Part shown: positions 18,768-50,442 of the stretch, piece by piece | Layout of the letters: every line of letters starts with the position of its first letter | How positions within the stretch are numbered: position 1 is the stretch's first letter | Assembly: GCA_016342455.1 (NCBI GenBank) | Contig: JAEIOE010000009.1 | Coordinates: 1 to 55,407, forward strand | Reading direction: 5' to 3' | DNA: 55,407 nucleotides | Origin: Mycoplasmatota bacterium | GTDB taxonomy: Bacteria > Bacillota_I > Bacilli_A > Izemoplasmatales > Hujiaoplasmataceae | Notes under the pieces: model-generated | What the model saw: the letters and a program-made list of their open reading frames with translations, nothing else | Database searches by the model: none | What the model was told of the DNA's origin: nothing | Position numbers and translations under genes: made by a program

Positions 18768-19592
18768 ATGATAGAATTTTTTGAGAATACAAGTCCGGTA
18801 ATAGCGGCATTAGTTGGAACCGCATTTACTTATTTTATGACAGCTACAGGAGCGGCGATGGTGTTTCCTTTTAAGAAGATTAACCAAAAAATTTTAAATG
18901 GTATGTTAGGATTTAGTGCCGGAGTTATGATAGCAGCTTCATTTTGGAGTTTATTAAATCCTGCTATTTTATTAGCTGAGGAATTAAGAGAATCTGGAGC
19001 TATGAGTGCACCTTCATGGGTGCCAGCTGTAATAGGGTTCTTATCAGGAGGAATATTCCTTTTATTAGTTGACAAAATACTACCGCATATTCATATGGAA
19101 ACAAATCATAAAGAAGGTGTTAAATCATCTTGGCAAAGATCGGTATTGTTAGTTTCAGCGATTACAATACATAATGTTCCGGAAGGCTTGGCTGTTGGGG
19201 TTGCATTTGGTGCAGCAGCTGCGGGTATACCAGGAGCTAGTATTGGTGCGGCTGTAGCCTTAGCAATTGGTATCGGTATTCAAAACTTCCCTGAAGGAGC
19301 AGCTGTAAGTATTCCTTTAAGAAGAGAAGGAATGTCTAGAGGAAAATCATTTATGATTGGGCAATATAGTGGTGTTGTTGAACCAATTGCCGGGGTATTA
19401 GGAGCTTTACTTGCAGTTAGCTTGAGAAACTTTTTACCGTATGCATTAGCTTTTGCAGCAGGAGCTATGATTTATGTTGTAATTGAAGAATTAATCCCTG
19501 AATCACAAATGTTGAAGACATCAAAAATAGCAACAATTGGAGCTATGTTAGGATTCTCAGTTATGATGTTATTGGATGTAGCCTTAGGATAA
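18768..19592 (+). CDS. ZIP-family divalent metal transporter
   Basis: A 274-aa membrane protein with eight predicted spans. The metal-transport motifs of the ZIP family are present: HNVPEGLAVG (H135 in span 4) and QNFPEGAAVS (Q172 in span 5). It probably imports zinc, iron or manganese. Between spans 3 and 4 lies a short loop with LPHIHMETNHK, which could bind metal. It is followed 13 bases later by an MBL-fold hydrolase gene, probably on the same transcript. Metal preference cannot be read from the sequence. Confidence 0.9.
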   Translation: MIEFFENTSPVIAALVGTAFTYFMTATGAAMVFPFKKINQKILNGMLGFSAGVMIAASFWSLLNPAILLAEELRESGAMSAPSWVPAVIGFLSGGIFLLLVDKILPHIHMETNHKEGVKSSWQRSVLLVSAITIHNVPEGLAVGVAFGAAAAGIPGASIGAAVALAIGIGIQNFPEGAAVSIPLRREGMSRGKSFMIGQYSGVVEPIAGVLGALLAVSLRNFLPYALAFAAGAMIYVVIEELIPESQMLKTSKIATIGAMLGFSVMMLLDVALG

Positions 19593-19605
19593 AAAGGAGA
19601 TAATT

Positions 19606-20232
19606 ATGAAGATTAAATGGTTGGGACATTCTTGTTTTAAAATAACAGAAGGAGATTATTCAATTGTCATAGATCCATATAATCCACTTATGTTTCCAAG
19701 ACTAGAAAAGTATACAGTCTCTGCAAATCAAATTATTTGTTCACATAATCATGAGGATCATAATTTTAAGAAAGCAGTTACCTTAATACAAACATCCAAA
19801 GAGAATCCGTTTAAAATTGATACTTTAACCACTTACCATGATGATTCAAAGGGATCAACTAGGGGATTAATGACAATTCATATTCTAGAAGTAAATGGAA
19901 TAAAGATTGCTCATTTAGGAGATATAGGTTGTGAATTAGAAGAAGATCAAATACAAAAACTTTGGGGTTTAGATTTTTTAATGATACCAGTAGGCGGATA
20001 TTATACAATTAACGCAGAAACTGCCAAAAGGTTAATAGATCGAATAAAACCTAAAACAGTTATACCGATGCACTATCGAGGAGAATTATTTGGTTTTCCA
20101 GTATTAGCTACATTAGATGATTTTACTAAATTTTATAAAAAAAATGAGATTACATATCTAAAATTCAATGAAATTGACTTAGAAAACAAATTAACAACTA
20201 AAGTATTAGTATTTAATATAGCAAGGTCTTAG
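19606..20232 (+). CDS. MBL-fold metal-dependent hydrolase
   Basis: A 208-aa cytoplasmic protein of the UlaG/YtkL-like branch. It opens with KIKWLGHSCFKI, has the metal motif SHNHEDH (H47, H49, D51, H52), HLGDIG with a further ligand Asp, and ends with VIPMHYRGE. Substrates of this branch vary (lactones, phosphodiesters) and this one is unknown. AAAAGGAG lies seven bases before the ATG. Co-transcription with the ZIP transporter is plausible, since the enzyme needs divalent metal. A terminator follows. Confidence 0.85.
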   Translation: MKIKWLGHSCFKITEGDYSIVIDPYNPLMFPRLEKYTVSANQIICSHNHEDHNFKKAVTLIQTSKENPFKIDTLTTYHDDSKGSTRGLMTIHILEVNGIKIAHLGDIGCELEEDQIQKLWGLDFLMIPVGGYYTINAETAKRLIDRIKPKTVIPMHYRGELFGFPVLATLDDFTKFYKKNEITYLKFNEIDLENKLTTKVLVFNIARS

Positions 20233-20259
20233 TTTAATAAACTCAATTAATATACGATT

Positions 20260-20288
20260 AAAAAAGCGAATTGTTTCGCTTTTTTTTT
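20260..20288 (+). terminator. Intrinsic terminator after the MBL-fold gene
   Basis: An 11-bp stem (AAAAAAGCGAA / TTCGCTTTTTT) with a 4-base loop and T tail. It lies just left of the insertion sequence. Confidence 0.85.
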
Positions 20289-20310
20289 AATATATCGCTA
20301 ATTTTCTGTT

Positions 20311-20332
20311 ATAATCTCGAGTTTCTCATTAA
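20311..20332 (+). repeat. Left terminal inverted repeat of the IS
   Basis: Begins ATAATCTCGAGTTTCTCATT. Perfect complement of 22217-22238. Together with flanking TGTT it forms an extended -10 (TGT-TATAAT, 20307-20315) pointing into the element. Confidence 0.88.
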
Positions 20333-20341
20333 AAAAACTAC

Positions 20342-20388
20342 AAAAGTGAACTTAAGACCGTAATAAAGTCATAAAGTTCACTTTTTTT
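20342..20388 (+). terminator. Terminator inside the left end of the IS
   Basis: A 12-bp perfect stem (20342-20353 with 20374-20385, AAAAGTGAACTT and complement), 20-base loop and T run. It would stop outside transcription from entering the transposase gene, a common way insertion sequences limit activity. Confidence 0.75.
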
Positions 20389-20418
20389 AAAATTTATGTT
20401 GTGGAAAACGGTGTAATA

Positions 20419-20427
20419 TGTTATAAT
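20419..20427 (+). promoter_or_regulatory. Transposase promoter (extended -10)
   Basis: TGT-TATAAT ends seven bases before ATG 20434. The predicted transcript starts at or next to the A of that ATG, so the message may be leaderless. No Shine-Dalgarno is visible. Confidence 0.5.
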
Positions 20428-20433
20428 GTATCT

Positions 20434-22155
20434 ATGGCATATATAACAATAAGAAAAAACCGTGAAGGTAGACAATATGTATATCTTGTCGAATCATTTA
20501 GAGTTAAAGACAAGGTACATAAGAGAACACTTGAATCTTATGGTAGACTAGATTTTATGGAAAAAAACGAACCAGGCGTTTATGAAAGATTAAGAATTGA
20601 AGCGCAAGAAGGGTTGATTGGTCGTACAATTCCTAAAAGACTAGAAGTATCATATGATTCAGAAAAAGAAATCTCATATGAGATTAAACAGTATGGATGG
20701 AAATTATTTGAATCCATCTTTGAAATGATTCGTATAAAGGAAGCATTAATGGAGACATTTGATGATTCAAATAAAGTATCTAAGCTTTTGGATATTTTGA
20801 AACTTCTAACTTATCAACGAGTGTTAAGACCTGGAAGTAAACTCTACACACAAAAAAATCAAAGTGATATGTTTGGTAATTGGAAAATTAAGGAAAATAA
20901 AATGTATCGCAGTTTAAAAAATCTATCTATAGCTAAAGAAAATATCCAAGTAAAAGCGCATGAAGGTGTTGGACATCATATAGGAAGACAAGCTACACTA
21001 GTCTTCTATGATGTAACTAACTATTACTTCGATATTGATATTAATGATCCAGATACAGTGGATGAAGAAACTGGAGAGATTACGGAAGGGTTTAGAAAAA
21101 AAGGGCCATGTAAAGCAAAAAGTGGTAATCCAATTGTTCAATTAGGACTATTTATGGACATGAACGGAATACCAATTTCTTACAAACTATTTAAAGGAAA
21201 CACCGTAGATGTGAAGACTTATATTCTCGCAATTGAACAAGTAAAAAAACAATTTGGATTAGAGCGAATCATAGTCGTTGCAGACAAAGGGATGAATAGT
21301 AAAACAAATGTGGGACTTACTTCTAATAATAACGATGGCTGGCTCTTTTCCCAAAAACACAGAGGGAAAAGAGGCGCAAATAAAGCAATACAAGACTTTA
21401 TTCTAGAGGGTAATGACTGGGAGTTTAATAAAAAAGCAACATTCGCAAAAAAATCAATGATCCATCAAAGAAAACTAGGAGACGGTCTTAGCGTAAGTGA
21501 AAAGATAGTCGTTACATGGAATAAAAAATATGCGATAAGAGAGAAGATACGCAGAGACGGCGCATTAGATTACGCAAGAAAACTTACAAACCCAGAACTC
21601 TTTAGACAAACGGCTAAAAGAGGTGGAAAGAAATACCTAGAAATTATGTATAAAGATAAAGAAAGTAATGAGTTAAAGCCATTTAATCCATTAATAACTA
21701 TTGATCAAGATAAAGTAGACTTTGATGAACAATTTGATGGCATTAACGTTTTAGTTACAAGCGAAATCAATATGAGTGATGATGACATCATCGCTCATTA
21801 TGGTAGTTTGTATAAGATTGAAGACTGTTTTAGAGTCACTAAGACAGAATTCAACGCAAAACCTGTTTATGTTAGGTTAGAAGAACATATAGAAGCACAC
21901 TTCTTAACTTGTTTTCTATCATTAATCATTATCAGGGTCTTACAGCATAAAACAAACTGGAAGTTCAGTGCTAGAAAACTAATTGAAGCAATCAATAGCG
22001 CAAGAGCAATAGAATTAACAAAGGGATTCTATAAAGTAACAGCAAACGAGGATTTAAAAGAATTATTTAGAATGCTGGATATAGATTTTAATAAAGAAAT
22101 AGTTCGACATGAAGACTTAAAAAACTTCAATAAAACGTGGTGTACTACAAAATAA
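20434..22155 (+). CDS. IS1634-family DDE transposase
   Basis: A 573-aa transposase, intact. The N-terminus MAYITIRKNREG and the segment FRVKDKVHKRTLESYGRL are typical of IS1634-like proteins. Catalytic acids of the DDE core are visible: YDVTNYYFD (first Asp), IVVADKGMNS (second Asp), and YKIEDCFRVTK (Glu with the downstream R and K). The longest frame begins at GTG 20401, but that stretch contains the promoter, so ATG 20434 is preferred. No frameshift is present, so the element could be active. Codon use is similar to its neighbours. Confidence 0.88.
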   Translation: MAYITIRKNREGRQYVYLVESFRVKDKVHKRTLESYGRLDFMEKNEPGVYERLRIEAQEGLIGRTIPKRLEVSYDSEKEISYEIKQYGWKLFESIFEMIRIKEALMETFDDSNKVSKLLDILKLLTYQRVLRPGSKLYTQKNQSDMFGNWKIKENKMYRSLKNLSIAKENIQVKAHEGVGHHIGRQATLVFYDVTNYYFDIDINDPDTVDEETGEITEGFRKKGPCKAKSGNPIVQLGLFMDMNGIPISYKLFKGNTVDVKTYILAIEQVKKQFGLERIIVVADKGMNSKTNVGLTSNNNDGWLFSQKHRGKRGANKAIQDFILEGNDWEFNKKATFAKKSMIHQRKLGDGLSVSEKIVVTWNKKYAIREKIRRDGALDYARKLTNPELFRQTAKRGGKKYLEIMYKDKESNELKPFNPLITIDQDKVDFDEQFDGINVLVTSEINMSDDDIIAHYGSLYKIEDCFRVTKTEFNAKPVYVRLEEHIEAHFLTCFLSLIIIRVLQHKTNWKFSARKLIEAINSARAIELTKGFYKVTANEDLKELFRMLDIDFNKEIVRHEDLKNFNKTWCTTK

Positions 22156-22164
22156 ATCGCTAAA

Positions 22165-22210
22165 AAAACACTATCTATGGCTAATTTAAGCCTTGGATAG
22201 TGTTTTATGT
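22165..22210 (+). terminator. Transposase terminator
   Basis: An 11-bp stem (AAAACACTATC / GATAGTGTTTT) whose loop contains a second small stem (GGCT/AGCC). It lies just inside the right end of the IS. Confidence 0.75.
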
Positions 22211-22216
22211 TTAAAA

Positions 22217-22238
22217 TTAATGAGAAACTCGAGATTAT
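22217..22238 (-). repeat. Right terminal inverted repeat of the IS
   Basis: Ends in GAGAAACTCGAGATTAT. Perfect complement of the left end. Confidence 0.88.
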
Positions 22239-22317
22239 GTCCTTAATATTTGATGTGTTATATAATGTTTTAGATCCTAGAATGAAAATGGGTTCCAATA
22301 AACTTTCTAGAGATTAA
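22237..22317 (+). pseudogene. 3' remnant of an OppB/DppB-type permease gene
   Basis: Directly after the right IS end an open frame of 26 codons ends at TAA 22315-22317. It reads LIFDVLYNVLDPRMKMGS and then NKLSRD. This is the C-terminal signature of dipeptide/oligopeptide permeases: a last span, then a Leu-Asp-Pro-Arg box. The intact oppB in this window ends VDLSYGLVDPRIRMGARK, which shows the same pattern. The rest of the gene is not left of the IS. The remnant is probably untranslated. Confidence 0.7.
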
Positions 22318-22341
22318 TTACTTTCTAGTATCAAAAAAAAT

Positions 22342-22369
22342 AAAAGCAGATTTTTCAATCTGCTTTTTT
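22342..22369. terminator. Terminator between the permease remnant and pullulanase
   Basis: An 11-bp stem (AAAAGCAGATT / AATCTGCTTTT) with a 4-base loop. T runs on both strands make it work in both directions. It ends five bases from the pullulanase stop. Confidence 0.8.
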
Positions 22370-22374
22370 AAATA

Positions 22375-25152
22375 TTATTTTTTCTTAAGTTGTGTAAATA
22401 CAATAAACGCTCCAGCACTTAATACCGCTAGGCCTCCTACAATTGAAATGATAATAGTAGGAAGTGGATTGTAATCCTCGATTGTGGTATCTTGGTACAG
22501 AATGTAAGTTGAATGCTCTTCAACAGAAATTTTTTCTCCGCCTTTGAATGTCTCAATTTCAGTATCTCCAGCAATTTCATTATTAGTTATCAATACCCAA
22601 CCGCCACCAGTAGGGAGTTTCAATTTTGTATTTTTAGTATTTGAATTTTGAATCACTAATATTTCTCCATATGCATCATTAGACGCACCATTTGAAATTT
22701 GATAAGCGATAATACCTTCTTCATCTTCATATAAGAATGATAAGTTATCTAAGATATCTTGTGAAGTAGACATTCTAAATGATTCGTGAGTATTTCTTAA
22801 TTCTATTAATTCTTTTACATAAGCAAACATATCAGCGCCATCAGCACTTGTTTTTAGTGACCAGTCTATTTGGTTTACTGAATCAGGTGATTCATAGCTA
22901 TTGTGGTCAAATCCTGTGCCACTTTCACTTGGTTTAGATCTTAGGAATTCATCTCCAGCGTGGATAAATGAAATACCCTGTGAAGTAAATATAATACCGT
23001 ATGATTGTTTTGCAAGTGGTAAAATTAAGTCTAGTTCATCATCTTCTTCAAGCGTTAAATATAATTTGTCATATAAAGTATTATTATCGTGACAAGCTAC
23101 ATAGTTAATTGTTTTATTAGGATCTTTATGCCAAGCAGTATATAGAACAGAAGGATGACTAATTCCACCAACGATACCATATTTTACAGCATTTATTAGA
23201 CTCAAGTCACCTTGAATCCAACCACCTTGTTCTCTAGCAAAAACGGAACCTTTAATTCCATCACGCGTTGCATCATTGAAAGCACCAACACCTTCGATTT
23301 CAGCTAAATTTGTTTTTCCTGCTTTTAAGCTATCTGCTAAAGGTGATGTTCCACCAGTCCATGGTTCACCATAGACCATTATCGTTGGATCTATTTCATG
23401 TAATTCCGCAGCGATAATTTCCATTGTTTCAGTATCATGTAAAGCCATTAAGTCAAAACGGAAACCTGATAAGTTATATTCAGTAGCCCAAAATAGTAAT
23501 GAGTCCACCATGAATTTTCTCATCATTGCGCGTTCTGAAGCAGTTTCATTACCAGTACCTGATCCATTACTGAAAGAACCATTGTTATTCATTCTATAGT
23601 AATAACCTGGTACTATTAAACTAAAGTTTGAATCAGCAGATTGTCCTGTATGATTGTACACAACATCCATATTCACTCTAATGTCCGCTTCTGAATAAGC
23701 CATTACAACTTGTTTTAATTCTGTAATTCTTGTTAAACCATCATATGGATCAGAAGAATAAGAACCTTGAATTGCATTAAAGTTTAAAGGCATGTATCCC
23801 CAGTTAAATAAATTATATCCTTCTTCATCAAGTCTTGTTTCGTCAACCATTCCAAAATCAAAGAATGGAAGTAGTTGAACATGTGTTACACCTAGTTCAA
23901 CGATGTGATCAAAACCAGTGGTTGCACCTTCATAAGTAGTCCCTTCTTCAATTAAGCCTAAGAATCTACCGCGATTAGCTTCGGTGCCATTCCAAGTTGT
24001 TGAAGAAGTTAAATCTCTTACATGTAATTCATAAATAATTGCATCAGTATTATTAACCATTATATCTGGTCTGTCATTATATGAGAATCCTTCAGGATTT
24101 GTTTGAGAAAAGTCAACTACTAATCCGCGGTATCCATTGACACCTACACCTTTAGCGTATGGGTCAACTACCTCATTAGTAACACCTCCGTTAGTAACTG
24201 AGAATGTATAATAAGTTCCATGTAAATTGGAATCAGCAATATATTCAAAAGTTCCTTTTTCTGAAGCAGTCATAGCAATTGTTTCTGAAGGTGTATCAGT
24301 ACCACCATCCGCTAAGCTCGTACCCGTAGAATAAAGATTTAAAGTAACATTTTCAGATATCGGCGCCCAAACTCTAAATATTGTATTGCTTCCGTCTATA
24401 AAAGCTCCTAAATCTCCATCATATGCATAAGCAGTTTCAAAAGCTTCTGAATCATAAATTCCATCAAATCCAATTTGTAATTCATTTACAGAACTATCTG
24501 AACTAAACGTAGCTTCAATAGTATATTTATGAGCAAAACTTAAATCGTTTGTTAAAACAATTGTACCTTCTGTATCATCGATTACAATACTTTCAATGCT
24601 CTCTGGAATTCCATCAGCGTAAACAGTAATATTAGCAGAAGGAATTGTTTCAGTGGCTTCAAAAGTAATTGTATTCATATTTGTAAAGTAGGCGTATTTG
24701 AATTTAGGTGATTTTACCGGCCCATCTATATCATCTAATGATGTACCAATTGCAGCATCACCTTCAACGAAGTAGTAATGCAATTCACCGTTGCTAGAAT
24801 TTGCAGGTATTTCAATAAATCTATCGCTAGCAATATCTTTTTCTAACCAAGCGCCTTTTCTAATAATTAATCCCATTTTTGTAATGCCAGGGAATGTGTC
24901 GTCAATATCTATAATAGCTACCACTCCACCAAAATTATATTCAGCTGACGTTTCGTCGGTGACAAAGTCAAATTGAGCACCTTCTTCGCTTGTAGGCATG
25001 TTTTGCCAACCCCAAACATTCCAGTTATCGTAATCTCCTCCAAAACGGTAATAATGTAAGTAAATTTCATTAGAAGCTTCATCAGCTTCAATTTGTTGTG
25101 CAAACCCAAAAATCGAGAATATAAGCACAAGTAAAACAAGAATTTTTTTCAT
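22375..25152 (-). CDS. pulA: Surface-anchored type I pullulanase
   Basis: A 925-aa secreted starch-debranching enzyme hydrolysing alpha-1,6 bonds. Order: signal peptide (1-23), CBM41-like starch-binding domain (about 28-130, with YYRFGGDYDNWNVWGW), Ig-like linker, CBM48-like domain (about 245-345), and a GH13_14 catalytic domain. Catalytic residues: nucleophile D567 in GFRFDLMALHD, acid/base E596 in VYGEPWTGG, and D689 in ACHDNN. The C-terminus has a membrane span (about 900-920) ending in KKK, so the enzyme is tethered to the cell surface rather than released. GAGGGG precedes the ATG. It diverges from the maltodextrin importer operon with a cre site between. Confidence 0.93.
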   Translation of the reverse strand: MKKILVLLVLIFSIFGFAQQIEADEASNEIYLHYYRFGGDYDNWNVWGWQNMPTSEEGAQFDFVTDETSAEYNFGGVVAIIDIDDTFPGITKMGLIIRKGAWLEKDIASDRFIEIPANSSNGELHYYFVEGDAAIGTSLDDIDGPVKSPKFKYAYFTNMNTITFEATETIPSANITVYADGIPESIESIVIDDTEGTIVLTNDLSFAHKYTIEATFSSDSSVNELQIGFDGIYDSEAFETAYAYDGDLGAFIDGSNTIFRVWAPISENVTLNLYSTGTSLADGGTDTPSETIAMTASEKGTFEYIADSNLHGTYYTFSVTNGGVTNEVVDPYAKGVGVNGYRGLVVDFSQTNPEGFSYNDRPDIMVNNTDAIIYELHVRDLTSSTTWNGTEANRGRFLGLIEEGTTYEGATTGFDHIVELGVTHVQLLPFFDFGMVDETRLDEEGYNLFNWGYMPLNFNAIQGSYSSDPYDGLTRITELKQVVMAYSEADIRVNMDVVYNHTGQSADSNFSLIVPGYYYRMNNNGSFSNGSGTGNETASERAMMRKFMVDSLLFWATEYNLSGFRFDLMALHDTETMEIIAAELHEIDPTIMVYGEPWTGGTSPLADSLKAGKTNLAEIEGVGAFNDATRDGIKGSVFAREQGGWIQGDLSLINAVKYGIVGGISHPSVLYTAWHKDPNKTINYVACHDNNTLYDKLYLTLEEDDELDLILPLAKQSYGIIFTSQGISFIHAGDEFLRSKPSESGTGFDHNSYESPDSVNQIDWSLKTSADGADMFAYVKELIELRNTHESFRMSTSQDILDNLSFLYEDEEGIIAYQISNGASNDAYGEILVIQNSNTKNTKLKLPTGGGWVLITNNEIAGDTEIETFKGGEKISVEEHSTYILYQDTTIEDYNPLPTIIISIVGGLAVLSAGAFIVFTQLKKK

Positions 25153-25198
25153 ATATCTTCCCCTCTATATCTTTCAATATATTTTTCTGATTTTCTTC

Positions 25199-25207
25199 AT
25201 TATAACA
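25199..25207 (-). promoter_or_regulatory. Pullulanase promoter (extended -10, minus strand)
   Basis: On the minus strand TGT-TATAAT. The cre site at 25244-25257 lies about 40 bases upstream of it. Confidence 0.55.
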
Positions 25208-25243
25208 CATCAATACAATTCTTAGAATACAGCATATTAAAAA

Positions 25244-25257
25244 TGAAAACGATAACA
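25244..25257 (+). promoter_or_regulatory. cre (CcpA) site between pullulanase and the malE operon
   Basis: TGAAAACGATAACA matches TGWAARCGYTWNCW at 13 of 14 positions. It lies between two divergent starch-use promoters and could control both. Confidence 0.65.
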
Positions 25258-25301
25258 CATACTAAAAATAGCCATTTGTCTTCTTGCCTATTTATATGCT
25301 A

Positions 25302-25330
25302 TTGTAAAGAAATTTGTAAAGTGATAGAAT
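25302..25330 (+). promoter_or_regulatory. Promoter of the maltodextrin operon
   Basis: TTGTAA (25302-25307), 17-base spacer, TAGAAT (25325-25330). GGGAG lies before ATG 25370. Confidence 0.6.
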
Positions 25331-25369
25331 ATATGTATTCAATAAAAATTAAAAAAGGGAGAATAAAAT

Positions 25370-26698
25370 ATGAAAAAAGCATTATTAATCTTAGCGCTTT
25401 CTTTTACAGTTCTTTTAGCTGCTGTTGGATGTAATTCTGACAACACACTAAAGATATGGGTTGGTTCTGAATCTGAAGCATTCTATACTGAAAAGATGGT
25501 CGAATATGTAACAGAATATAACAACACACATGATGAAGAATTTCCTTATGAAGTAGTTGTTTCAGGTGTTGATACAGGTACAGCAGCATCAACATTTCTA
25601 GATGATACAGAAGCAGGAGCAGACATTTTTACAGTCGCTCATGATAATTTAGGAAAATTGATTGCTGGATCTAGTTCAATCGCACCAATAACAAGTGCTG
25701 CATTATTAGCTCAAATTGATGCGGATAATCCAGACAGTTTTAAAGATGTAATAAAAGGAACAGTAGATGGTACAACTTATACTTTTGGTATTCCTTATAT
25801 TGCTCAATCATTAGTTCTATATTACAACACTTCATACATTACGGCAGAACAAGCAGAAACTTGGGAAGGTATTTTAGCGGCTGCTAAAGCAGCTAATAAA
25901 CAAGCTCTTTCTTTAACAGGTACTGATGGATTTAATAATTCATTCTTATTACTAGCTACAGATGCAACTGACCACTCTACATCATTAGAGTTATACACTG
26001 ATGGGGTTCAAGAAAATTGTTTCGCTACTGGTGATGATACAATTGCTAAATTAAAATGGGGTCAAAGTTTCTTTTTAGATGCTAATGGTGCTAAAAAACC
26101 ATCTGAATCTGGATGGGAAGTAGAAATTAGTGATGAAAAATCTATCTCAGTAATTGGTGGAGCATGGCATTTCTCTGCTGCACAAGCTGCATTAGGAGAA
26201 AATTTAGGTATCACTACACTTCCAACATTTACGTTAACTGAAGATGATGCATATGGAACAGCAGTTGCTGGAACAGTTTATAAATCAGGTTCATTTGCAG
26301 ATACTAAAATGTTTGTTATGAAGAAAAACAGTGAAAGAGCAGAATACTTAGAAGATATTCTATTATTCTTATCAAGTACAGCTGTTCAAGAAGAATCTTT
26401 TGAAGCAGTTCAAAACTTACCAGCTTACAAAAACGCTGCTACAGAATTTGAAGCTTTCCAAGAAGATACGTTAGAAGCTGATTTAGCTTCAGCTCAAGTT
26501 GAAATGTTTAGTTGGGGAATTCCACAACCTTTTGGATTCTCAAGTAGATTTAATACATATTTTTACTCAAAAGGAGCTCCAGAATTAATCCTAGCTATCC
26601 TAGAAAATGCTGAAAATGCATATTCAACTGATCAAGATATATATGATCAAATGGTAGAAATTCAATCAATTTGGACAACAGGATTAAAATTAGAGTAG
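25370..26698 (+). CDS. malE: Maltodextrin-binding lipoprotein (MalE/MdxE type)
   Basis: A 442-aa extracytoplasmic solute-binding protein of family 1. The signal peptide ends in AAVGC. The mature protein opens with NTLKIWVGSESEAFYTEKM, as in maltose-binding proteins, and contains TFGIPYIAQSLVLYYNTSY and ISVIGGAWHF, typical of the hinge and ligand cleft. It is the first gene of an operon with malF, malG and an extracellular amylase, which supports maltodextrin as the ligand. Relatives bind other oligosaccharides too, so the exact glycan is inferred. Confidence 0.87.
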   Translation: MKKALLILALSFTVLLAAVGCNSDNTLKIWVGSESEAFYTEKMVEYVTEYNNTHDEEFPYEVVVSGVDTGTAASTFLDDTEAGADIFTVAHDNLGKLIAGSSSIAPITSAALLAQIDADNPDSFKDVIKGTVDGTTYTFGIPYIAQSLVLYYNTSYITAEQAETWEGILAAAKAANKQALSLTGTDGFNNSFLLLATDATDHSTSLELYTDGVQENCFATGDDTIAKLKWGQSFFLDANGAKKPSESGWEVEISDEKSISVIGGAWHFSAAQAALGENLGITTLPTFTLTEDDAYGTAVAGTVYKSGSFADTKMFVMKKNSERAEYLEDILLFLSSTAVQEESFEAVQNLPAYKNAATEFEAFQEDTLEADLASAQVEMFSWGIPQPFGFSSRFNTYFYSKGAPELILAILENAENAYSTDQDIYDQMVEIQSIWTTGLKLE

Positions 26699-26725
26699 TA
26701 TAAATCCTAATTTAAAGGAGATAAT

Positions 26726-28144
26726 ATGAACAACGAAGATAATGCAGACAAAAAGGGATTTTTGTCTGCTTTCCACAAATTTTTTAATAAAATAAAAGAA
26801 CTTTTTGTCGCCTTTGCTAAGCGTTTTAAAGACGCTAGTACAGGGACTAAAATAAGTCATTTCGTTATGGGCTTTGGAAACATAAAACACAAACAGATTT
26901 TGAAAGGAATCATTTTCTTTATTGTGCAATTGGGCTTTATCTCTTTGATGGTGTTTTCACCTGAAATAAATGCTACTCCATTTGGTTCAAAATCATTAGT
27001 TAATCTAATTACATTAGGTACAGAAGCAGGCGATATTAGTAATCCAACTGACAATTCTATGTTAATGTTATTATTTGGTATTGTAACAATTGGAATGATT
27101 TTATTATTTGTAATGACATATTTTGCAAGTATCCGATCTTCTTATAAGGCTGATTTAGATATAAGAGAGGGTAAATTACCAACTACTTTCAAACAAGATT
27201 TACAAGCTTTATTAGATGAAAGATTCCATATAGCCATGTTAACACCTGCCTTAATTGGTATATTGGTATTTACGCTTTTACCTACCATATTCATGATAAG
27301 TATTGCCTTTACAAATTTTGATTCCTTGCATCCCGCAGGGCAAGTATTGTTTGATTGGGTAGGCTTTGAAAACTTTGTTAATGTATTTAATGGAACAGGT
27401 GAAATTGGACATAGATTTTTACCGGTATTAGGTTGGACGATATTATGGGCTTTTTTAGCAACTTTTTCTAATTATATAGGCGGTATATTACTGGCTTTAT
27501 TAATTAATAGAAAAGGAGTTAAAGGAAAGAAAGTTTGGCGTACAATCTTTATTGTAACGATTGCGTTACCACAGTTTATTACCTTATTGGCTATGAGAAA
27601 CTTGATGGCTGATTATGGACCAATCAATACATTTATGGTTAATATTGGTTTAATAGATGAACCAATTAATTTTCTAGCAAATGCTGCAAGCCCTTGGGTG
27701 GCTAGAATCACTATTGTTGTGATTAATATTTGGATTGGGGTTCCATTTACAATGTTAATGACAAGTGGTATATTAATGAACGTTCCAAGGGACCTTTATG
27801 AAGCTGCACAAATAGATGGAGCTACCAAACGTCAAGCATTTAGATATATTACGATACCTTATGTAGTATTTGTAACCACTCCATATTTGATTACTTCATT
27901 TATTGGTAATATTACAAACTTTAACATCATATTCTTATTGACTGGTGGTGCACCAAATGTACCAGGATACATCGCTGGTGAAACAGACTTATTAATTACT
28001 TGGTTATACAAATTGACTATTGATCAAAATGAATATAATCTAGGAGCTGTAGTAGGTATCTTAACCTTTATTATTACAGCGACTGCTACGTTATTAACTT
28101 ATACACGTAGTAAATCTTTCAAAGAGGAGGATGCTTTCCAATGA
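26726..28144 (+). CDS. malF: Maltodextrin ABC permease MalF-like
   Basis: A 472-aa permease, longer than the usual 290-aa sugar permeases, like E. coli MalF. A charged N-terminal region (about 1-45) is followed by extra spans (about 55-80 and 105-130). The core permease domain from about 165 on has the EAA loop YEAAQIDGATKRQAFRYITI. It ends with a TGA that overlaps the malG start. It forms the channel with MalG. AAAGGAG precedes the ATG. No ATPase gene is adjacent. Confidence 0.88.
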   Translation: MNNEDNADKKGFLSAFHKFFNKIKELFVAFAKRFKDASTGTKISHFVMGFGNIKHKQILKGIIFFIVQLGFISLMVFSPEINATPFGSKSLVNLITLGTEAGDISNPTDNSMLMLLFGIVTIGMILLFVMTYFASIRSSYKADLDIREGKLPTTFKQDLQALLDERFHIAMLTPALIGILVFTLLPTIFMISIAFTNFDSLHPAGQVLFDWVGFENFVNVFNGTGEIGHRFLPVLGWTILWAFLATFSNYIGGILLALLINRKGVKGKKVWRTIFIVTIALPQFITLLAMRNLMADYGPINTFMVNIGLIDEPINFLANAASPWVARITIVVINIWIGVPFTMLMTSGILMNVPRDLYEAAQIDGATKRQAFRYITIPYVVFVTTPYLITSFIGNITNFNIIFLLTGGAPNVPGYIAGETDLLITWLYKLTIDQNEYNLGAVVGILTFIITATATLLTYTRSKSFKEEDAFQ

Positions 28145-29046
28145 TGACCGAAGCCGCAGCTTTAAAACCAAAAGCTTTTAAAAGTGTAAAAAAATCAGAA
28201 AGAATTAGCAATATTTTATCTTATGGACTATTGGGAGTGCTTGCCTTAATTTGGATGTTTCCTATAGTTTGGATTATTTTAAATGCATTTAGAACTGAAT
28301 ATAATACATCTGGACAATTAATTGGTATCGTAGTAAGTCATTACTTCCCTACCCAATTAGGTTTAGAGAATTTTAAATTATTGTTCCAAGAAACATTATT
28401 CCCGCGTTGGTTCTTGAATACGTTGATGGTGGCTTTCTTTACTTTCATCTTATCAACATTCTTAACCTTATGTGTGGCTTATGTTATGTCAAAACTTAAA
28501 TTTAAAATGAGAAAGAGATACCTAAGTGTTGCAATTATTTTGGGATTATTCCCAGGATTTATGTCAATGATTGCTATATATTATATATTGAAAGCATTAC
28601 AATTAACTCAAACATTGTTCGCACTTATTTTAGTTTATTCTTCTGGTGCTGGACTTGGATTCTATGTTGCAAAGGGATTCTTTGATATTATTCCTGATTC
28701 ACTAGTAGAATCCGGAAGATTAGATGGAGCAACCAACTTCCAGATATTTACAAAGATTATTGTTCCAATTTCCAAACCAATTATTATATATACAGCTTTA
28801 ACATCATTTATCGGGCCGTGGATGGACTTCATCTTTGCTAGAGTTATTCTCGGGGAGACCAACGTCGAACTGCACACGGTCGCCGTGGGATTATATTACA
28901 TGATGTATGGGGAAAGAATTGACTCCAATGTCTTTACTATTTTCTGTGCTGGTTGTGTCATTGTTGCTATTCCTATTGTCGCATTATTCTTAATGATGCA
29001 AAAATATTATGTTGAAGGCGTAACTGCTGGAGCAGTTAAAGGATAA
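28141..29046 (+). CDS. malG: Maltodextrin ABC permease MalG-like
   Basis: A 301-aa permease with six spans. The EAA loop is LVESGRLDGATNFQIFTKII and the protein ends with AGAVKG as is usual for MalG. Start is 28141 or 28144 (ATGATG); GAGGAGG lies in the end of malF. A stretch at 28811-28890 is about 57% G+C against roughly one third around it and uses codons rare elsewhere in the window (GGG, CCG, CTC, CTG, GTC). The protein reads normally through it (FIGPWMDFIFARVI onward), so the reading frame is intact. Confidence 0.9.
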   Translation: MMTEAAALKPKAFKSVKKSERISNILSYGLLGVLALIWMFPIVWIILNAFRTEYNTSGQLIGIVVSHYFPTQLGLENFKLLFQETLFPRWFLNTLMVAFFTFILSTFLTLCVAYVMSKLKFKMRKRYLSVAIILGLFPGFMSMIAIYYILKALQLTQTLFALILVYSSGAGLGFYVAKGFFDIIPDSLVESGRLDGATNFQIFTKIIVPISKPIIIYTALTSFIGPWMDFIFARVILGETNVELHTVAVGLYYMMYGERIDSNVFTIFCAGCVIVAIPIVALFLMMQKYYVEGVTAGAVKG

Positions 29047-29070
29047 ATTGTTTTTAGAGAGAGAGGTGGA

Positions 29071-30663
29071 ATGATGAAAAAGATTTTCTTGGTTTTTCTA
29101 CTTAGCTTACTGTCTTTTGGAATGATAGCTTGCAACAGCGAGTATATCATTCAAGACGAATCCTTGATTTCAGTGGGTGTTGATGATATGTACAAAGTAT
29201 ATTATGAGATATTTGTAGGATCCTTTTCAGATTCTAATAAAGATGAAATGGGAGATTTACAAGGAATTATCAATCGTTTTGATTATTTAAACGATGGATT
29301 AGATTCAAGTGGAAATAGTTTAGGAGTAGAAGGTCTTTGGTTAATGCCAATTATGCCTTCGCCTAGTTACCACAAATATGATGTTACTGATTATAAAGAT
29401 ATTGATGATGATTATGGTACACTTGAAGATTTTTCTCTATTGATCGAAGCTGCTAATGAAAGAGGCGTTGATGTGATTATTGATTTAGTTTTAAATCATA
29501 CATCAAATCAACATCCTTGGTTTAAAGCGGCGAAACAAGCTATCATGGACGGAGATTTTTCGAATGAGTATATTAATTATTATGTAATCGTAACGGAAGA
29601 TCAAAAAGAAAGTGGCAAAATATATTACAATCTATATGGAGATTATTACTATGAAGGTAATTTTTCTTCATCAATGCCAGAACTAGACTTAGAAAACGAA
29701 TCAGTAAGAAATGAAATAGTTGATATCATACAGTTTTGGTATGATTTGGGAGTGAAAGGTTTTAGACTAGATGCTGCTAAATACATATACCTAGGTGAAA
29801 CGGATAAAAATGTTGAATTTTGGAACTGGTTTGTTTCGGAAGCTAAAAAAATTAAAGAAGATACTTATATAGTAGGAGAAGTGTGGTCTGGAGATTCTTT
29901 GATTATGCCTTATTATGAAAGTTTCAGTAATTTTGATTTTGGGATGTCACAACAAGAAGGAGCTGTAGCTTCTGTTGTTAACGGATTGGACGATATTAAC
30001 TGGTTTGTAAGTTATATTGACAGGTATAGAAGTCTTGTTGAACAAGTAAATTCAGAAGCAATACTTACTCCGTTTATTTCAAACCATGATATGAACCGTG
30101 CTGCTGGTTATTTAAGTTTAGAGGATTACAGTATGTACTGTGCTGCTAGTATGTATATCTTATCTTATGGAAACCCATTTATTTACTATGGGGAAGAGAT
30201 TGGGATGAAAGGTAGTAGATCAACAGAAAATACGGATGCAAATCGTAGATTAGCTATGCTTTGGGGAGATAGAGATACAGTAACAGATCCGGTAGGAACG
30301 ACTTACGACGCTAAGTTGCAGATTAACGGAACAGTTAAATCGCAGCTAAAAGATGAAGACAGTTTATATAATCACTATAAGAAGTTAATTATGTTAAGAA
30401 AAGCAAATCCAGAAATCGCTAGAGGTGATTACACCGTTCTAGACTTTGATAGTTATTATAGCTTTGGTGGATTTTTATCTACCTATAATAATTCAACAGT
30501 AGGAGTGTTTCACAATATTGGTGAAACTGATCTCGTAATTGACTTAAGTTTATTTACCGATTTTAGCTTTTCAGAAGTCAGAGGATATGTTGGTGCTGAT
30601 GTAGCAAGTCTTGAAGGGCAAATATTGACTATATCAGGCAATACATCTGTTGTTTTGAAATAG
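29071..30663 (+). CDS. GH13 alpha-amylase-type lipoprotein
   Basis: A 530-aa surface enzyme. The signal peptide ends in GMIAC (lipobox). The GH13 barrel shows VIIDLVLNHTS, nucleophile D234 in GFRLDAAK, acid/base E270 in VGEVWSGD, and D340 in FISNHDMNRA. Its closest kind is the alpha-amylase/oligo-glucosidase group. It would cut alpha-1,4-glucans at the membrane surface and feed the MalEFG importer. Start ATG 29071 or 29074 with GAGAGAGGTGG upstream. It is the last gene of the malEFG transcript or close to it: the 107-base gap after it contains a new promoter. Confidence 0.9.
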   Translation: MMKKIFLVFLLSLLSFGMIACNSEYIIQDESLISVGVDDMYKVYYEIFVGSFSDSNKDEMGDLQGIINRFDYLNDGLDSSGNSLGVEGLWLMPIMPSPSYHKYDVTDYKDIDDDYGTLEDFSLLIEAANERGVDVIIDLVLNHTSNQHPWFKAAKQAIMDGDFSNEYINYYVIVTEDQKESGKIYYNLYGDYYYEGNFSSSMPELDLENESVRNEIVDIIQFWYDLGVKGFRLDAAKYIYLGETDKNVEFWNWFVSEAKKIKEDTYIVGEVWSGDSLIMPYYESFSNFDFGMSQQEGAVASVVNGLDDINWFVSYIDRYRSLVEQVNSEAILTPFISNHDMNRAAGYLSLEDYSMYCAASMYILSYGNPFIYYGEEIGMKGSRSTENTDANRRLAMLWGDRDTVTDPVGTTYDAKLQINGTVKSQLKDEDSLYNHYKKLIMLRKANPEIARGDYTVLDFDSYYSFGGFLSTYNNSTVGVFHNIGETDLVIDLSLFTDFSFSEVRGYVGADVASLEGQILTISGNTSVVLK

Positions 30664-30665
30664 AC

Positions 30666-30679
30666 TAAAAGCGTTTACA
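30666..30679 (+). promoter_or_regulatory. cre (CcpA) site upstream of the starch-binding lipoprotein
   Basis: TAAAAGCGTTTACA, one mismatch from the cre consensus, centred about 68 bases before the predicted transcription start. An upstream position like this can activate as well as repress in related bacteria. Confidence 0.6.
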
Positions 30680-30705
30680 TGTTTTTACAAAACACCTTGT
30701 ACTAA

Positions 30706-30734
30706 TTGACTTACATGGGCCTCGGTGTTATAAT
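30706..30734 (+). promoter_or_regulatory. Strong sigma-A promoter for the starch-binding lipoprotein
   Basis: TTGACT (30706-30711), exactly 17 bases, TATAAT (30729-30734) with an extended TGT. One of the best promoters in the window. AGGAGG precedes ATG 30773. Confidence 0.75.
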
Positions 30735-30772
30735 TTATACAGTTATATTAAAAAAATTTATAGGAGGAAAGA

Positions 30773-31369
30773 ATGAAAAAATTATTTGTTTTATTACTAG
30801 CTCTAGTATTATCTATTGGATTAATCGGATGTTCAAACGACCCATTAGTAAATGCAGACAAAGATTATTATGTTACTGGTAACTTTAACGGTTGGGATAC
30901 TGTTGCTGATACTGGTATGATGGAAGCTATCGCTAAAAATGATGATAGAGTTGCTTCTCTTGACCTTAAAGGTGTTGAATTCTTATATTTAAAAGAAATC
31001 GTATTACCTACTGACGAAGCTGGTTGGGGAGTAAATTATATTATTGATGGTGTAAATACATCATTAGACGGAAACTTAACAGTTAAAGTTATTAGAACTA
31101 CAGCTGGTGATTCTGATGCAAGAGACTGGTGGTCACAATCTCCTGAAAGTGGAGCAATTATTAACTTAACACCAGAAACATTATTTATGCCTGAATTCTT
31201 AGAAAATGCAACTACTTCAGTTGTTGTTGGTGAAGGTGATGATGCAGTTACATTTACAAGCGGTGCTTGGAATGACAACCCTGCAGCATTAGCAGCTGGT
31301 ACTTATTATGCTGTTTTCGCTGAATTTACAGATGGAACAAGAGGATTAGGATTAATCGTTGTAGCATAA
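30773..31369 (+). CDS. Small lipoprotein, probably starch/glycan-binding
   Basis: A 198-aa lipoprotein (signal ends in GLIGC). The mature N-terminus reads DKDYYVTGNFNGWD, the opening strand pattern of starch-binding E-set/CBM modules found in amylases and in SusE/SusF-like proteins. The rest is beta-rich with aromatic residues that could stack on sugars (RDWWSQ, GAWNDNP). There is no catalytic domain. It follows the amylase gene but has its own strong promoter and a cre site, so it is probably abundant. I infer that it gathers glucans at the surface for PulA, the amylase and MalE. Confidence 0.6.
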   Translation: MKKLFVLLLALVLSIGLIGCSNDPLVNADKDYYVTGNFNGWDTVADTGMMEAIAKNDDRVASLDLKGVEFLYLKEIVLPTDEAGWGVNYIIDGVNTSLDGNLTVKVIRTTAGDSDARDWWSQSPESGAIINLTPETLFMPEFLENATTSVVVGEGDDAVTFTSGAWNDNPAALAAGTYYAVFAEFTDGTRGLGLIVVA

Positions 31370-31389
31370 TTCTAAAAAACTACTAAAAT

Positions 31390-31425
31390 AAAAAGCAGAC
31401 TTTTTATAGCCTGCTTTTTTTATTT
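31390..31425 (+). terminator. Terminator at the end of the starch locus
   Basis: A 9-bp stem (AAAAAGCAG / CTGCTTTTT), 12-base loop and T run. Confidence 0.75.
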
Positions 31426-31483
31426 ATTATTGGTAATTTATTAAGTTAAATGCTAGAAATTTGTTTTAGATAAGTCAACTCTC

Positions 31484-31492
31484 TGTTATAAT
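31484..31492 (+). promoter_or_regulatory. Extended -10 promoter of nfnAB
   Basis: TGT-TATAAT. It leaves a leader of about 100 bases before ATG 31600. Confidence 0.6.
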
Positions 31493-31551
31493 AGACAAGA
31501 TAAGTTACTTTTTTTTAAAAAAGAAACGATGATAACTTTCAGAAAGGAAGA

Positions 31552-31588
31552 TATATTCTAAAATACAATATTCGCTGTTTAGAATATA
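31552..31588 (+). promoter_or_regulatory. Hairpin in the nfnA 5' leader, next to the ribosome site
   Basis: A perfect 11-bp inverted repeat (TATATTCTAAA, 31552-31562, with TTTAGAATATA, 31578-31588) around a 15-base loop. It ends one base before the Shine-Dalgarno AAGGAAG (31590-31596). It could be a translation control element or a DNA operator. Confidence 0.5.
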
Positions 31589-31599
31589 CAAGGAAGCTT

Positions 31600-32415
31600 A
31601 TGTATAAAATCATACGCAAGGAAATCCTTAATGTGGATGTAGAACTAATGGAAATAGAAGCTCCACTTGTTGCTAGAAATGCGCTACCTGGAAATTTCCT
31701 CATTATTCGTGTAGACGAAGACGGAGAAAGAATTCCATTAACTATAGTAGAACACGATTTAAAAAATGTAACAATCATTTATCAAAAATTAGGTTATTCA
31801 ACAAAACTTCTTAGTCAAAAAGAAGCTGGGGATAGTCTGTTTGATGTGGTTGGTCCTTTAGGACAAGCTTCTCATATTCGTGATGTAAAGAGAGTGTTAG
31901 GTATTGCGGGTGGAGTAGGAGCTGCACCTTTATACCCTCAATTAAAGGAATATGCTAAAAGAGGGGCTAAAGTTGATTTAATTATCGGCGGTAGAACCAA
32001 AGAACATTTGATACTTTTAGATAAATATAAAGAGTTTTGCGATACGGTTTATTGTGCAACTGACGATGGATCTTCAGGAATAAAAGGTTTTGTTACTCAA
32101 GTAGCTGAAATCGTATATCAAAACTATAAATATGATTTAGCAATTGCGATTGGGCCACTTATTATGATGAAGAACTGTGTTATTTTGAATGAAAAATATG
32201 ACATAGAAACAGATGTCTCTTTAAATCCAATAATGATTGATGGAACTGGGATGTGTGGAAACTGCCGCGTTACCATAAACGGGGAAACAAAGTTTGCTTG
32301 TGTGGACGGTCCTGATTTTCCAGCAAAAGGGATAGATTTTGACGAGTTAATGGCAAGACAAAAATATTACAATCATGAAGAAGACCATATTTGTAAAATG
32401 AAGTTAAGTAAGTAA
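31600..32415 (+). CDS. nfnA: NfnA-like subunit of NADH-dependent ferredoxin:NADP+ oxidoreductase
   Basis: A 271-aa flavoprotein of the PyrK/NfnA/SudB type. It has a ferredoxin-reductase FAD and NAD domain (VLGIAGGVGAAPLYPQLKEY near residues 103-122) and a C-terminal [2Fe-2S] site. The ligands appear to be D214 (IDGTGMC), C219, C222 and C234, the Asp/three-Cys spacing known for NfnA. With NfnB it would couple NADH, NADPH and ferredoxin by electron bifurcation. SudAB sulfide dehydrogenase is the same family, so a polysulfide-linked role cannot be excluded. Confidence 0.88.
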   Translation: MYKIIRKEILNVDVELMEIEAPLVARNALPGNFLIIRVDEDGERIPLTIVEHDLKNVTIIYQKLGYSTKLLSQKEAGDSLFDVVGPLGQASHIRDVKRVLGIAGGVGAAPLYPQLKEYAKRGAKVDLIIGGRTKEHLILLDKYKEFCDTVYCATDDGSSGIKGFVTQVAEIVYQNYKYDLAIAIGPLIMMKNCVILNEKYDIETDVSLNPIMIDGTGMCGNCRVTINGETKFACVDGPDFPAKGIDFDELMARQKYYNHEEDHICKMKLSK

Positions 32416-32416
32416 C

Positions 32417-33799
32417 ATGAAAAGAGATAGAACAGTAATGCCAGTTCAAGAGGCAGATGTTAGGAGTACTAACTTTTTAGAAGTTGCTTTAGGTTATAGT
32501 CTAGATGATGCTGTACTAGAAGCTTCGAGATGTTTAGACTGTAAGATACCAAGATGTGTAGCAGCTTGTCCAGTTAATATAGATATACCATTGTTTATCA
32601 GAGAATTAAAAGGCAAAGATGTTGAATCTGCTTATTTTACAATCAATAAAGCAAATATTCTTCCAGCAATTTGCGGAAGGGTATGTCCTCAAGAAAAGCA
32701 GTGTGAAGGAGCTTGTATTGTTGGGATTAAAGCAAAACCAGTATCTATTGGTGCTTTAGAAAGATTCGTTGGAGACTATGCTTTAGAAAATAAGCTAAGT
32801 TCAGATGAAATAATCATAGAAAATAATAAAAAAGTAGCCATAGTGGGATCTGGACCTGCAGGCTTAGCTTGTGCTGTGTCACTAAGAAGACTTGGTTATA
32901 CAGTAGATATATTTGAAGCATTACATGAATTTGGTGGAGTATTAAAATATGGTATTCCAGAATTTAGATTACCAAAAAATGTTGTTGACGAAGAAATTAA
33001 TAAAGCTAGAAAATTAGGAGTTAATTTTCATAAGAATGTCATCATTGGTAAATCAATAACAATTGATCAATTATTACATGAAGAAAACTATAAAGCTATC
33101 TTCTTAGGTTCTGGTGCAGGACTTCCAAGTGCTTTAGGCTTAGCGGGAGAAAACTTAACAGGTATTTACTATGCTAATGAGTTTTTAACTCGTGTAAATT
33201 TAATGAAAGCAAACTCTTTTCCAAATACCCCAACACCAGTAAGAATCGGTTCTAATGTAGCCGTAATTGGCGGAGGAAATGTAGCTATGGACGCTGCGAG
33301 AACAGCGAAAAGATTAGGGGCTAAAAATGTCTTTATACTTTATAGAAGAGACATGGATTCATTACCAGCTAGACTAGAAGAAGTACATCATGCAATAGAA
33401 GAAGGTATTACTTTCAATTTACTATATAATCCTGTTGAATTTAAAGGTAGAGATTATAAAGTAAATCGTGTAAAATGTGAAATCATGGAACTAGGAGAAA
33501 TGGATGATTCAGGTAGAAGAAGACCTATGCCTACAGGTAAATATAAAACTTTTAATATTACCTCAAGTATCATATCAATTGGTCAAAGCCCTAATCCAAT
33601 TCTTAAGAAAGCAACACCCGAACTTGTTGTAGATAACAGAGGAAGAATTGTAGTAGATCATCATCAAACATCAATTGACGGTGTTTTCGCTGGAGGAGAT
33701 GTTGTAAGTGGAGCGGCTACTGTTATTTTAGCGATGGGTGCCGGAAAAGAAGCGGCTGTTGCGATGAACGAATATATAGAAAGTTTAGAGATAGATTGA
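32417..33799 (+). CDS. nfnB: NfnB-like subunit (GltD-type NADPH oxidoreductase)
   Basis: A 460-aa iron-sulfur flavoprotein. The N-terminal half has the Cys clusters for two [4Fe-4S] centres: CLDCKIPRCVAACPVNIDIP and ICGRVCPQEKQCEGAC. FAD binding: VAIVGSGPAGLACAVSLRRL (about 137). NADPH binding: VAVIGGGNVAMDAARTAKRL (about 280). The last FAD motif is GVFAGGDVVSGAATV. Glutamate synthase small subunit has the same plan, but the adjacent NfnA and absent large subunit favour Nfn. It starts one base after nfnA and ends in TGA overlapping the next ATG. Confidence 0.88.
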   Translation: MKRDRTVMPVQEADVRSTNFLEVALGYSLDDAVLEASRCLDCKIPRCVAACPVNIDIPLFIRELKGKDVESAYFTINKANILPAICGRVCPQEKQCEGACIVGIKAKPVSIGALERFVGDYALENKLSSDEIIIENNKKVAIVGSGPAGLACAVSLRRLGYTVDIFEALHEFGGVLKYGIPEFRLPKNVVDEEINKARKLGVNFHKNVIIGKSITIDQLLHEENYKAIFLGSGAGLPSALGLAGENLTGIYYANEFLTRVNLMKANSFPNTPTPVRIGSNVAVIGGGNVAMDAARTAKRLGAKNVFILYRRDMDSLPARLEEVHHAIEEGITFNLLYNPVEFKGRDYKVNRVKCEIMELGEMDDSGRRRPMPTGKYKTFNITSSIISIGQSPNPILKKATPELVVDNRGRIVVDHHQTSIDGVFAGGDVVSGAATVILAMGAGKEAAVAMNEYIESLEID

Positions 33800-49334: not shown

Positions 49335-49379
49335 ATGTTAATATTTAAATATATTGGCATTTCACATACATATGGGTAA
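49335..49379 (+). CDS. 14-codon leader ORF overlapping the oppB start
   Basis: ATG 49335 lies three bases after a good Shine-Dalgarno (AAAGGAG, 49325-49331). It reads MLIFKYIGISHTYG and stops at TAA 49377-49379, overlapping the oppB ATG at 49372. The oppB ATG itself has no ribosome site nearby. The short frame may serve to bring ribosomes to oppB by stop-restart coupling. It could also be a chance frame. Confidence 0.45.
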   Translation: MLIFKYIGISHTYG

Positions 49380-50442
49380 ATACATTGCCGTGAGAGTTGT
49401 GTGGGTATTTCTTGTACTAGCGATTATTTTGACATTAAACTATACATTAATCAAAATCGCTCCAGAATATCCTCCAACAACAGTAGACGCAAAAGAAATA
49501 TATTATGCACGACAAGTTAGTGATGGATACATGACAGAGAGGGTAGAAAGAAACGAATTTATCGTTATTTCTATGAATAACCAAGAACTCACAATTCCTA
49601 CTAACGCTTATTATGAAGACGAAGACGGAAGATATAGAATCTACGAACCTATTTCAGTGGCGCTTCAATACTTCAGATGGATTACAAATATAGTAACAGA
49701 TTGGGACTGGGGAGTATCAACTAGAATTGCGGTTAACCAACCTGCTTTTGGTGTGCTTAGTAAAAGAATGGGTGTTACACTTAAGCTTAACTTAATTGCA
49801 CTATTCTTTTATATTCCTATTGGGTTCTTTCTTGGTATTATTGCGGCACTTAAGAAGAATTCATGGCTTGATAATGTTATTTCATTCTCAGTAATGATTT
49901 TTATTTCAATTCCAAGTTTCGTATTAATGACCCTATTACTAATGTTCTTAGGTTACCAATGGGGTTGGGTTCCAACTCAGTTTCCCGCCGCCGACTTGGA
50001 GGGATCAATACAGTTTGTAGGATTAATTCTACCTGTATTAGGTCTATCTTTTGGGGCGATTGCAGGACTTACAAGGGTAACAAGAGCTGAATTAACAGAA
50101 GTTTTAACTTCTGAGTTCTTATTATTAGCGAGAACAAAAGGTTTAACAAAAACACAAGCTGTCTTAAGACATGCGATGAGAAATTCATTAGTGCCATTAG
50201 TTCCTGGTATTATTGGTTCATTCGTAGGATTATTAAGTGGTTCTGTTATTATAGAAAAAATCTATAGTATTCCTGGTACAGGTAGAATTTATCTGAGAGC
50301 CATGACAGAAGGACAGTATGACTATAATGTAATTTTAGTTTCAACAGCATTCTATACAACAATAGGATTGTTTGCAGTATTGCTAGTTGACTTATCATAT
50401 GGATTAGTTGACCCTAGAATTAGAATGGGGGCGAGAAAATAA
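49372..50442 (+). CDS. oppB: Oligopeptide ABC permease OppB
   Basis: A 356-aa permease with six spans. It opens MGKYIAVRVVWVFLVLAI and has a large external loop (about 35-130) before GVSTRI. The ATPase-contact loop is FLLLARTKGLTKTQAVLRHAMRNS. It ends VDPRIRMGARK. ATG 49372 matches family N-termini; a TTG at 49354 adds six residues. It has no own Shine-Dalgarno, but a 14-codon leader ORF overlaps its start. It ends sharing one base with oppC. Confidence 0.88.
   Translation: MGKYIAVRVVWVFLVLAIILTLNYTLIKIAPEYPPTTVDAKEIYYARQVSDGYMTERVERNEFIVISMNNQELTIPTNAYYEDEDGRYRIYEPISVALQYFRWITNIVTDWDWGVSTRIAVNQPAFGVLSKRMGVTLKLNLIALFFYIPIGFFLGIIAALKKNSWLDNVISFSVMIFISIPSFVLMTLLLMFLGYQWGWVPTQFPAADLEGSIQFVGLILPVLGLSFGAIAGLTRVTRAELTEVLTSEFLLLARTKGLTKTQAVLRHAMRNSLVPLVPGIIGSFVGLLSGSVIIEKIYSIPGTGRIYLRAMTEGQYDYNVILVSTAFYTTIGLFAVLLVDLSYGLVDPRIRMGARK

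Follow-up and report, generated by a model that had tools for sequence, protein, structure and literature searches.

The window, by which we mean the whole stretch of 55,407 nucleotides analysed here (contig JAEIOE010000009.1 of a Mycoplasmatota bacterium, GCA_016342455.1), probably holds a deletion scar associated with an insertion sequence (IS). We think it likely that an element of the IS1634 family inserted itself in a conserved promoter, at the -10 box, and that a later deletion ran from the right end of the element into a permease gene. The features around the junction are collected in Table 1.

Table 1. Features around the IS junction (positions in the window; G002, G003 and G004 are related genomes).
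Feature	Position	Strand	Basis
ZIP metal transporter, conserved left neighbour	18768..19592	+	PF02535; adjoins LactB3 in G002, G003, G004
LactB3 metallo-hydrolase, last conserved gene left of the IS	19606..20232	+	PF13483; G002-G004 orthologues 49-53% identical
Intrinsic terminator of LactB3	20260..20285	+	
Truncated promoter: TTAATA, 17 nt, TATAAT with TG before it (TGTTATAAT)	20287..20315	+	Alignment with G002-G004
IS1634-family insertion sequence	20311..22238	+	22-bp perfect terminal inverted repeats; single copy
Intact IS1634-family transposase, 573 aa	20434..22155	+	NF033559 and PF01609
Last 26 codons and two bases of lost oppB-like permease gene (MSLIFDVLYNVLDPRMKMGSNKLSRD, stop)	22235..22317	+	Translation; C-terminus matches
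Terminator-like hairpin between oppB tail and convergent pullulanase gene	22342..22367	.	
Type I pullulanase, convergent with oppB tail	22375..25152	-	TIGR02104, 695 bits
Maltose-type ABC transporter, alpha-amylase-type enzyme, small lipoprotein	25370..31369	+	
pyrK-like and gltD-like genes, where the ancestral order resumes	31600..33799	+	

A preliminary description, made from the sequence alone, had recognised a 26-codon permease tail with an OppB-like DPR..MG box abutting the IS. The frame at 22237-22317 translates into 26 residues followed by a stop, with the D..Y..DPR..MG box of OppB C-termini present at the stop. We scored the tail against approximately 1.04 million translated residues (all frames of the fetched loci), and the top scores were 67, 65, 65, 63 and 62, every one of them at the extreme C-terminus of an OppB-type permease, near the stop, while the maximum for 20 shuffles of the tail was 46. 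The library was enriched in OppB genes, but the matches are position-specific and end near the stop. Could the frame be a chance one and no permease remnant at all? It is only 26 codons long and no Pfam model matches it alone (PF00528, the BPD_transp_1 membrane domain, does not match these 26 residues, and the corresponding part of the gene is missing), but a chance frame should not score 63-67 at OppB C-termini when its shuffles stay at or below 46, and we find this reading scarcely credible. On sequence comparison, the tail is a genuine OppB-type C-terminus.

The ATG of the tail is probably a native codon because it aligns with a homologue residue (MSLIFD..DPR in the tail, VMVLMVD..DPR and VMTLIVD..DPR in homologues). 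After the MG, the residues SNKLSRD are nearer to those of orphan OppB-like genes (MGSKKAQIE, MGSKR) than to the operon type (MGARK), and going by these few residues the lost gene was perhaps of the orphan type. Like the tail, the orphan OppB-like permeases of the order (e.g., G000 C83 and G055 C9) have a C-terminal DPR box and residues past the MG; unlike the tail, whose own gene is lost, they are intact, at approximately 315-360 aa, with no adjacent oppC seen. Such orphans are common in the order and occur in varied gene contexts (L075:8641-9612; L091-L103, L175-L178).

Left of the IS the LactB3 gene ends, followed only by its terminator and a promoter. The upstream part of the permease is thus absent from the left flank, as had been stated, and neither a truncated oppB nor the remainder of the tail's gene was found elsewhere in the assembly. 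The preliminary description went further and had the IS removing an opp-type locus, which we do not find: there is no oppC, oppD or oppF downstream of the tail, the genome's three OppB genes (C25, C78 at 49354-50439, and C83) are all complete, and two complete opp operons are still in the genome. The loss that can be shown is of one OppB-like gene, not of a whole opp locus. The counter-case named at the time was a relative with the short frame and no permease gene upstream; none of the relatives that we searched has the short frame, and none has oppB beside the pullulanase gene either (it is absent there in G007 and G017, and the G001 and G008 contigs end at that point).

The IS is 1928 bp long, with its inverted repeats at 20311-20332 and 22217-22238, in agreement with the length and terminal repeats of the IS1634 family (1500-2000 bp, the size range given in the family account of PMC2266710). 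Its transposase scores 316 bits against NF033559 (cut-off 100), the transposase family that it has in common with IS1634 of Mycoplasma mycoides and IS1549 of Mycobacterium smegmatis, and 29.5 bits against the DDE domain PF01609 (cut-off 23). By these models it is an IS1634-family element. The element proper is probably 20315-22234, which would make the outer ATAA at the left part of the target. At the protein level, the closest relatives from public genomes show 62%, 54% and 47% identity; a single-sequence scan of GTDB genomes found no close copies, and from an alignment-based scan for relatives we kept 80 loci. Viral contigs gave none, and an Rfam scan over 19500-32500 gave no matches. As the preliminary description had proposed, the genome was searched for other IS copies as well as for the missing permease part, and it holds no second copy, remnant or IS end, with 3 mismatches allowed in the ends.

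For IS1549 and IS1634, the account in PMC2266710 reports long, variable direct repeats of 8-514 bp; relatives of the window IS have such repeats too, whereas the window copy has none. We measured the direct repeats abutting the IS in relatives having both flanks. Most of the measurable copies had them, usually perfect and 37 to 360 bp long (one was 626 bp with 23 mismatches), and the three nearest relatives, in the order given above, had repeats of 69 (4 mismatches), 37 and 197 bp. For the window IS we found no direct repeat after shifting the boundaries, allowing repeats up to 700 bp and looking for seeds in 1.4 kb flanks; the longest exact word common to its 3 kb flanks is 12 bp and lies far from the IS ends. 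Elements of the IS1634 family have direct target repeats that are either 5-6 bp or long and variable; a direct repeat belongs to the insertion event, and a rearranged copy cannot show it. Because the repeat is missing despite the long ones of the relatives, the flanks most likely do not come from one simple insertion. Decay or age is a poor explanation for the absence, since the IS ends are perfect and the transposase is intact. A few other family members (L182, L211, L253, L262) also have no measurable repeats. Two of these, L182 and L253, have a TATAA-like sequence at both ends, which the window copy partly resembles; they may also be recombined copies.

On the left side, the IS cuts a conserved promoter right at the -10 (TGTTATAAT). 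This promoter aligns with the one before an ABC-F gene in the congeners G002 and G003 and with the one before an ion-channel gene in G004. We place the IS at the -10 of the promoter following LactB3 because G002 (TTATTATAAT), G003 (TTGATATAAT) and G004 (ATGTTATAAT) all have a promoter-like sequence in the matching position, after the LactB3 terminator and before the next gene. At the left end, all 7 defined bases of TGnTATAA are matched (chance approximately 0.001 per end). An extended -10 at this end had been suggested as perhaps the old promoter; it is real and it is old, but by synteny with G002 and G003 it is the promoter of the ABC-F and channel genes, not of opp. As for the right junction, its reverse complement (GGACATAAT) has only 5 of the 7 bases of a -10 signature, which is frequent by chance and uninformative.

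The gene order in G002 and G003 is ZIP, LactB3, promoter, ABC-F, CASTOR/POLLUX-type channel, pyrK and gltD. In G004 the channel comes directly after LactB3, and the contig ends soon after. In the window it is the IS, the oppB tail, the pullulanase and the maltose-amylase genes that lie between LactB3 and pyrK, and the genome has no orthologue of ABC-F (the best match is a 28% paralogue) or of the channel (the best is a 24% partial match). In G001, G017 and G007 the block of pullulanase, maltose, amylase and lipoprotein genes (22375-31369) is found in a different setting, which means that it has moved relative to those genomes. Ahead of the ABC-F gene of G002 and G003 there is a very short leader frame (MFTNR or MFYNR, then a stop) and a hairpin-like stretch (L068:6780-6935 and the matching L069 stretch on the minus strand), an arrangement that suggests attenuation control. 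Against the ribosomal-protection model NF000355, the ABC-F protein scores 381.7 bits, just above the cut-off of 380.

This two-sided gene order also bears on whether the assembly is correct. The genome is in 108 contigs, and if two IS copies had been collapsed and the left flank of one joined to the right flank of the other, we would expect the same picture of unmatched flanks; the G018 and G040 contigs do end shortly past an IS1634-family element. However, the IS is present once, no other contig has its ends even at 3 mismatches, and ZIP-LactB3 and pyrK-gltD, which are neighbours in the congeners, flank the junction on one contig. Since ancestral neighbours stand on either side, the assembler is unlikely to have joined the flanks at random, and we regard a chimera as quite improbable.

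The preliminary description also had the IS taking part in a deletion or recombination, and the absent direct repeats and the two genes missing from the genome bear this out. We infer the following order of events. The IS would have inserted into the -10 box of the promoter behind LactB3, which served the ABC-F and ion-channel genes. In a separate event, the pullulanase-maltose block, with a convergent oppB-like gene, would have come between LactB3 and pyrK. A deletion beginning precisely at the right-hand IS end would then have removed the right-hand target repeat, ABC-F, the channel and all of oppB except the last 26 codons. This deletion was likely the outcome of homologous recombination with a second IS copy that lay in oppB; alternatively, the transposase may have made an adjacent deletion, with one IS end attacking oppB. 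The data fit both routes. There is no reciprocal product in the genome (ABC-F, channel or truncated oppB elsewhere), and recombination between IS copies is not directly demonstrable because no second copy or remnant remains.

A different history would have oppB already truncated when the pullulanase block arrived, with the IS inserting later into the existing junction. The changed context of the block in G001, G017 and G007 means that a junction had to form in any case. But a simple later insertion should leave direct repeats tens to hundreds of bases long, and only by coincidence would the IS ends meet both the conserved -10 and the oppB break, so we consider this history unlikely and prefer a deletion from the IS end. 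There are comparable cases in Paracoccus, where ISPmar2 and ISPve1 generated deletions at their insertion sites (PMC3281130): as in the window, the DNA beside the inserted IS was deleted, and ISPmar2 was intact without direct repeats. Unlike the window IS, those elements belong to other families (IS3, IS21) and were studied in laboratory trap plasmids.

A -10 at one end appears to be typical of related elements with long repeats. We scored 19 relatives with long repeats for TGnTATAA at the repeat edge, against random positions in the same loci with their own composition (three of the 19 loci are copies of one element at different sites in one organism). At one IS end, the repeat edge matched 7 of 7 defined bases in 11 loci and 6 of 7 in 5 (16/19), which the random positions seldom did. 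The Fisher combined p is about 2e-23, for a motif that was noticed and tested in the same loci. Where the repeat copy is uninterrupted, the motif mostly extends to TGnTATAAT, and 9 of the 16 have an open frame of 100 aa or more that begins within 130 bp downstream, compared to 1.1 expected. The loci with a TGnTATAA-like sequence at one end only and long repeats are L180, L181, L183, L184, L186, L187, L200, L209, L221, L223, L226, L236, L237, L239, L243 and L255. A distant copy on a Ligilactobacillus plasmid (L263, with a 14-bp repeat) has TGCTATAAT too; the signature is absent in L259 and L261, and L260 and L262 have no usable end.

We therefore think it reasonably probable that, in this clade of the IS1634 family, strand transfer takes place at the 3' edge of TGnTATAA for one end and tens to hundreds of bases further upstream for the other, with the long repeat containing the promoter. 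If true, the target gene keeps a full copy of its promoter while a second copy abuts the IS, and a clade that targets extended -10 elements would explain why the left end of the window IS lies exactly in the -10 after LactB3. A limited literature search found no publication on the signature, and the account of IS1634 and IS1549 in PMC2266710 does not describe it. The scar is an unremarkable example of gene loss driven by an IS; what may be new is the preference in insertion. That 2008 review states, for the long variable repeats of IS1549 and IS1634, that there was no mechanistic model (PMC2266710). With a rule that links one repeat end to extended -10 promoters, the mechanism becomes testable, and there are three candidates for what the transposase recognises: the sequence of the promoter, its DNA in melted form, or RNA polymerase bound to it.
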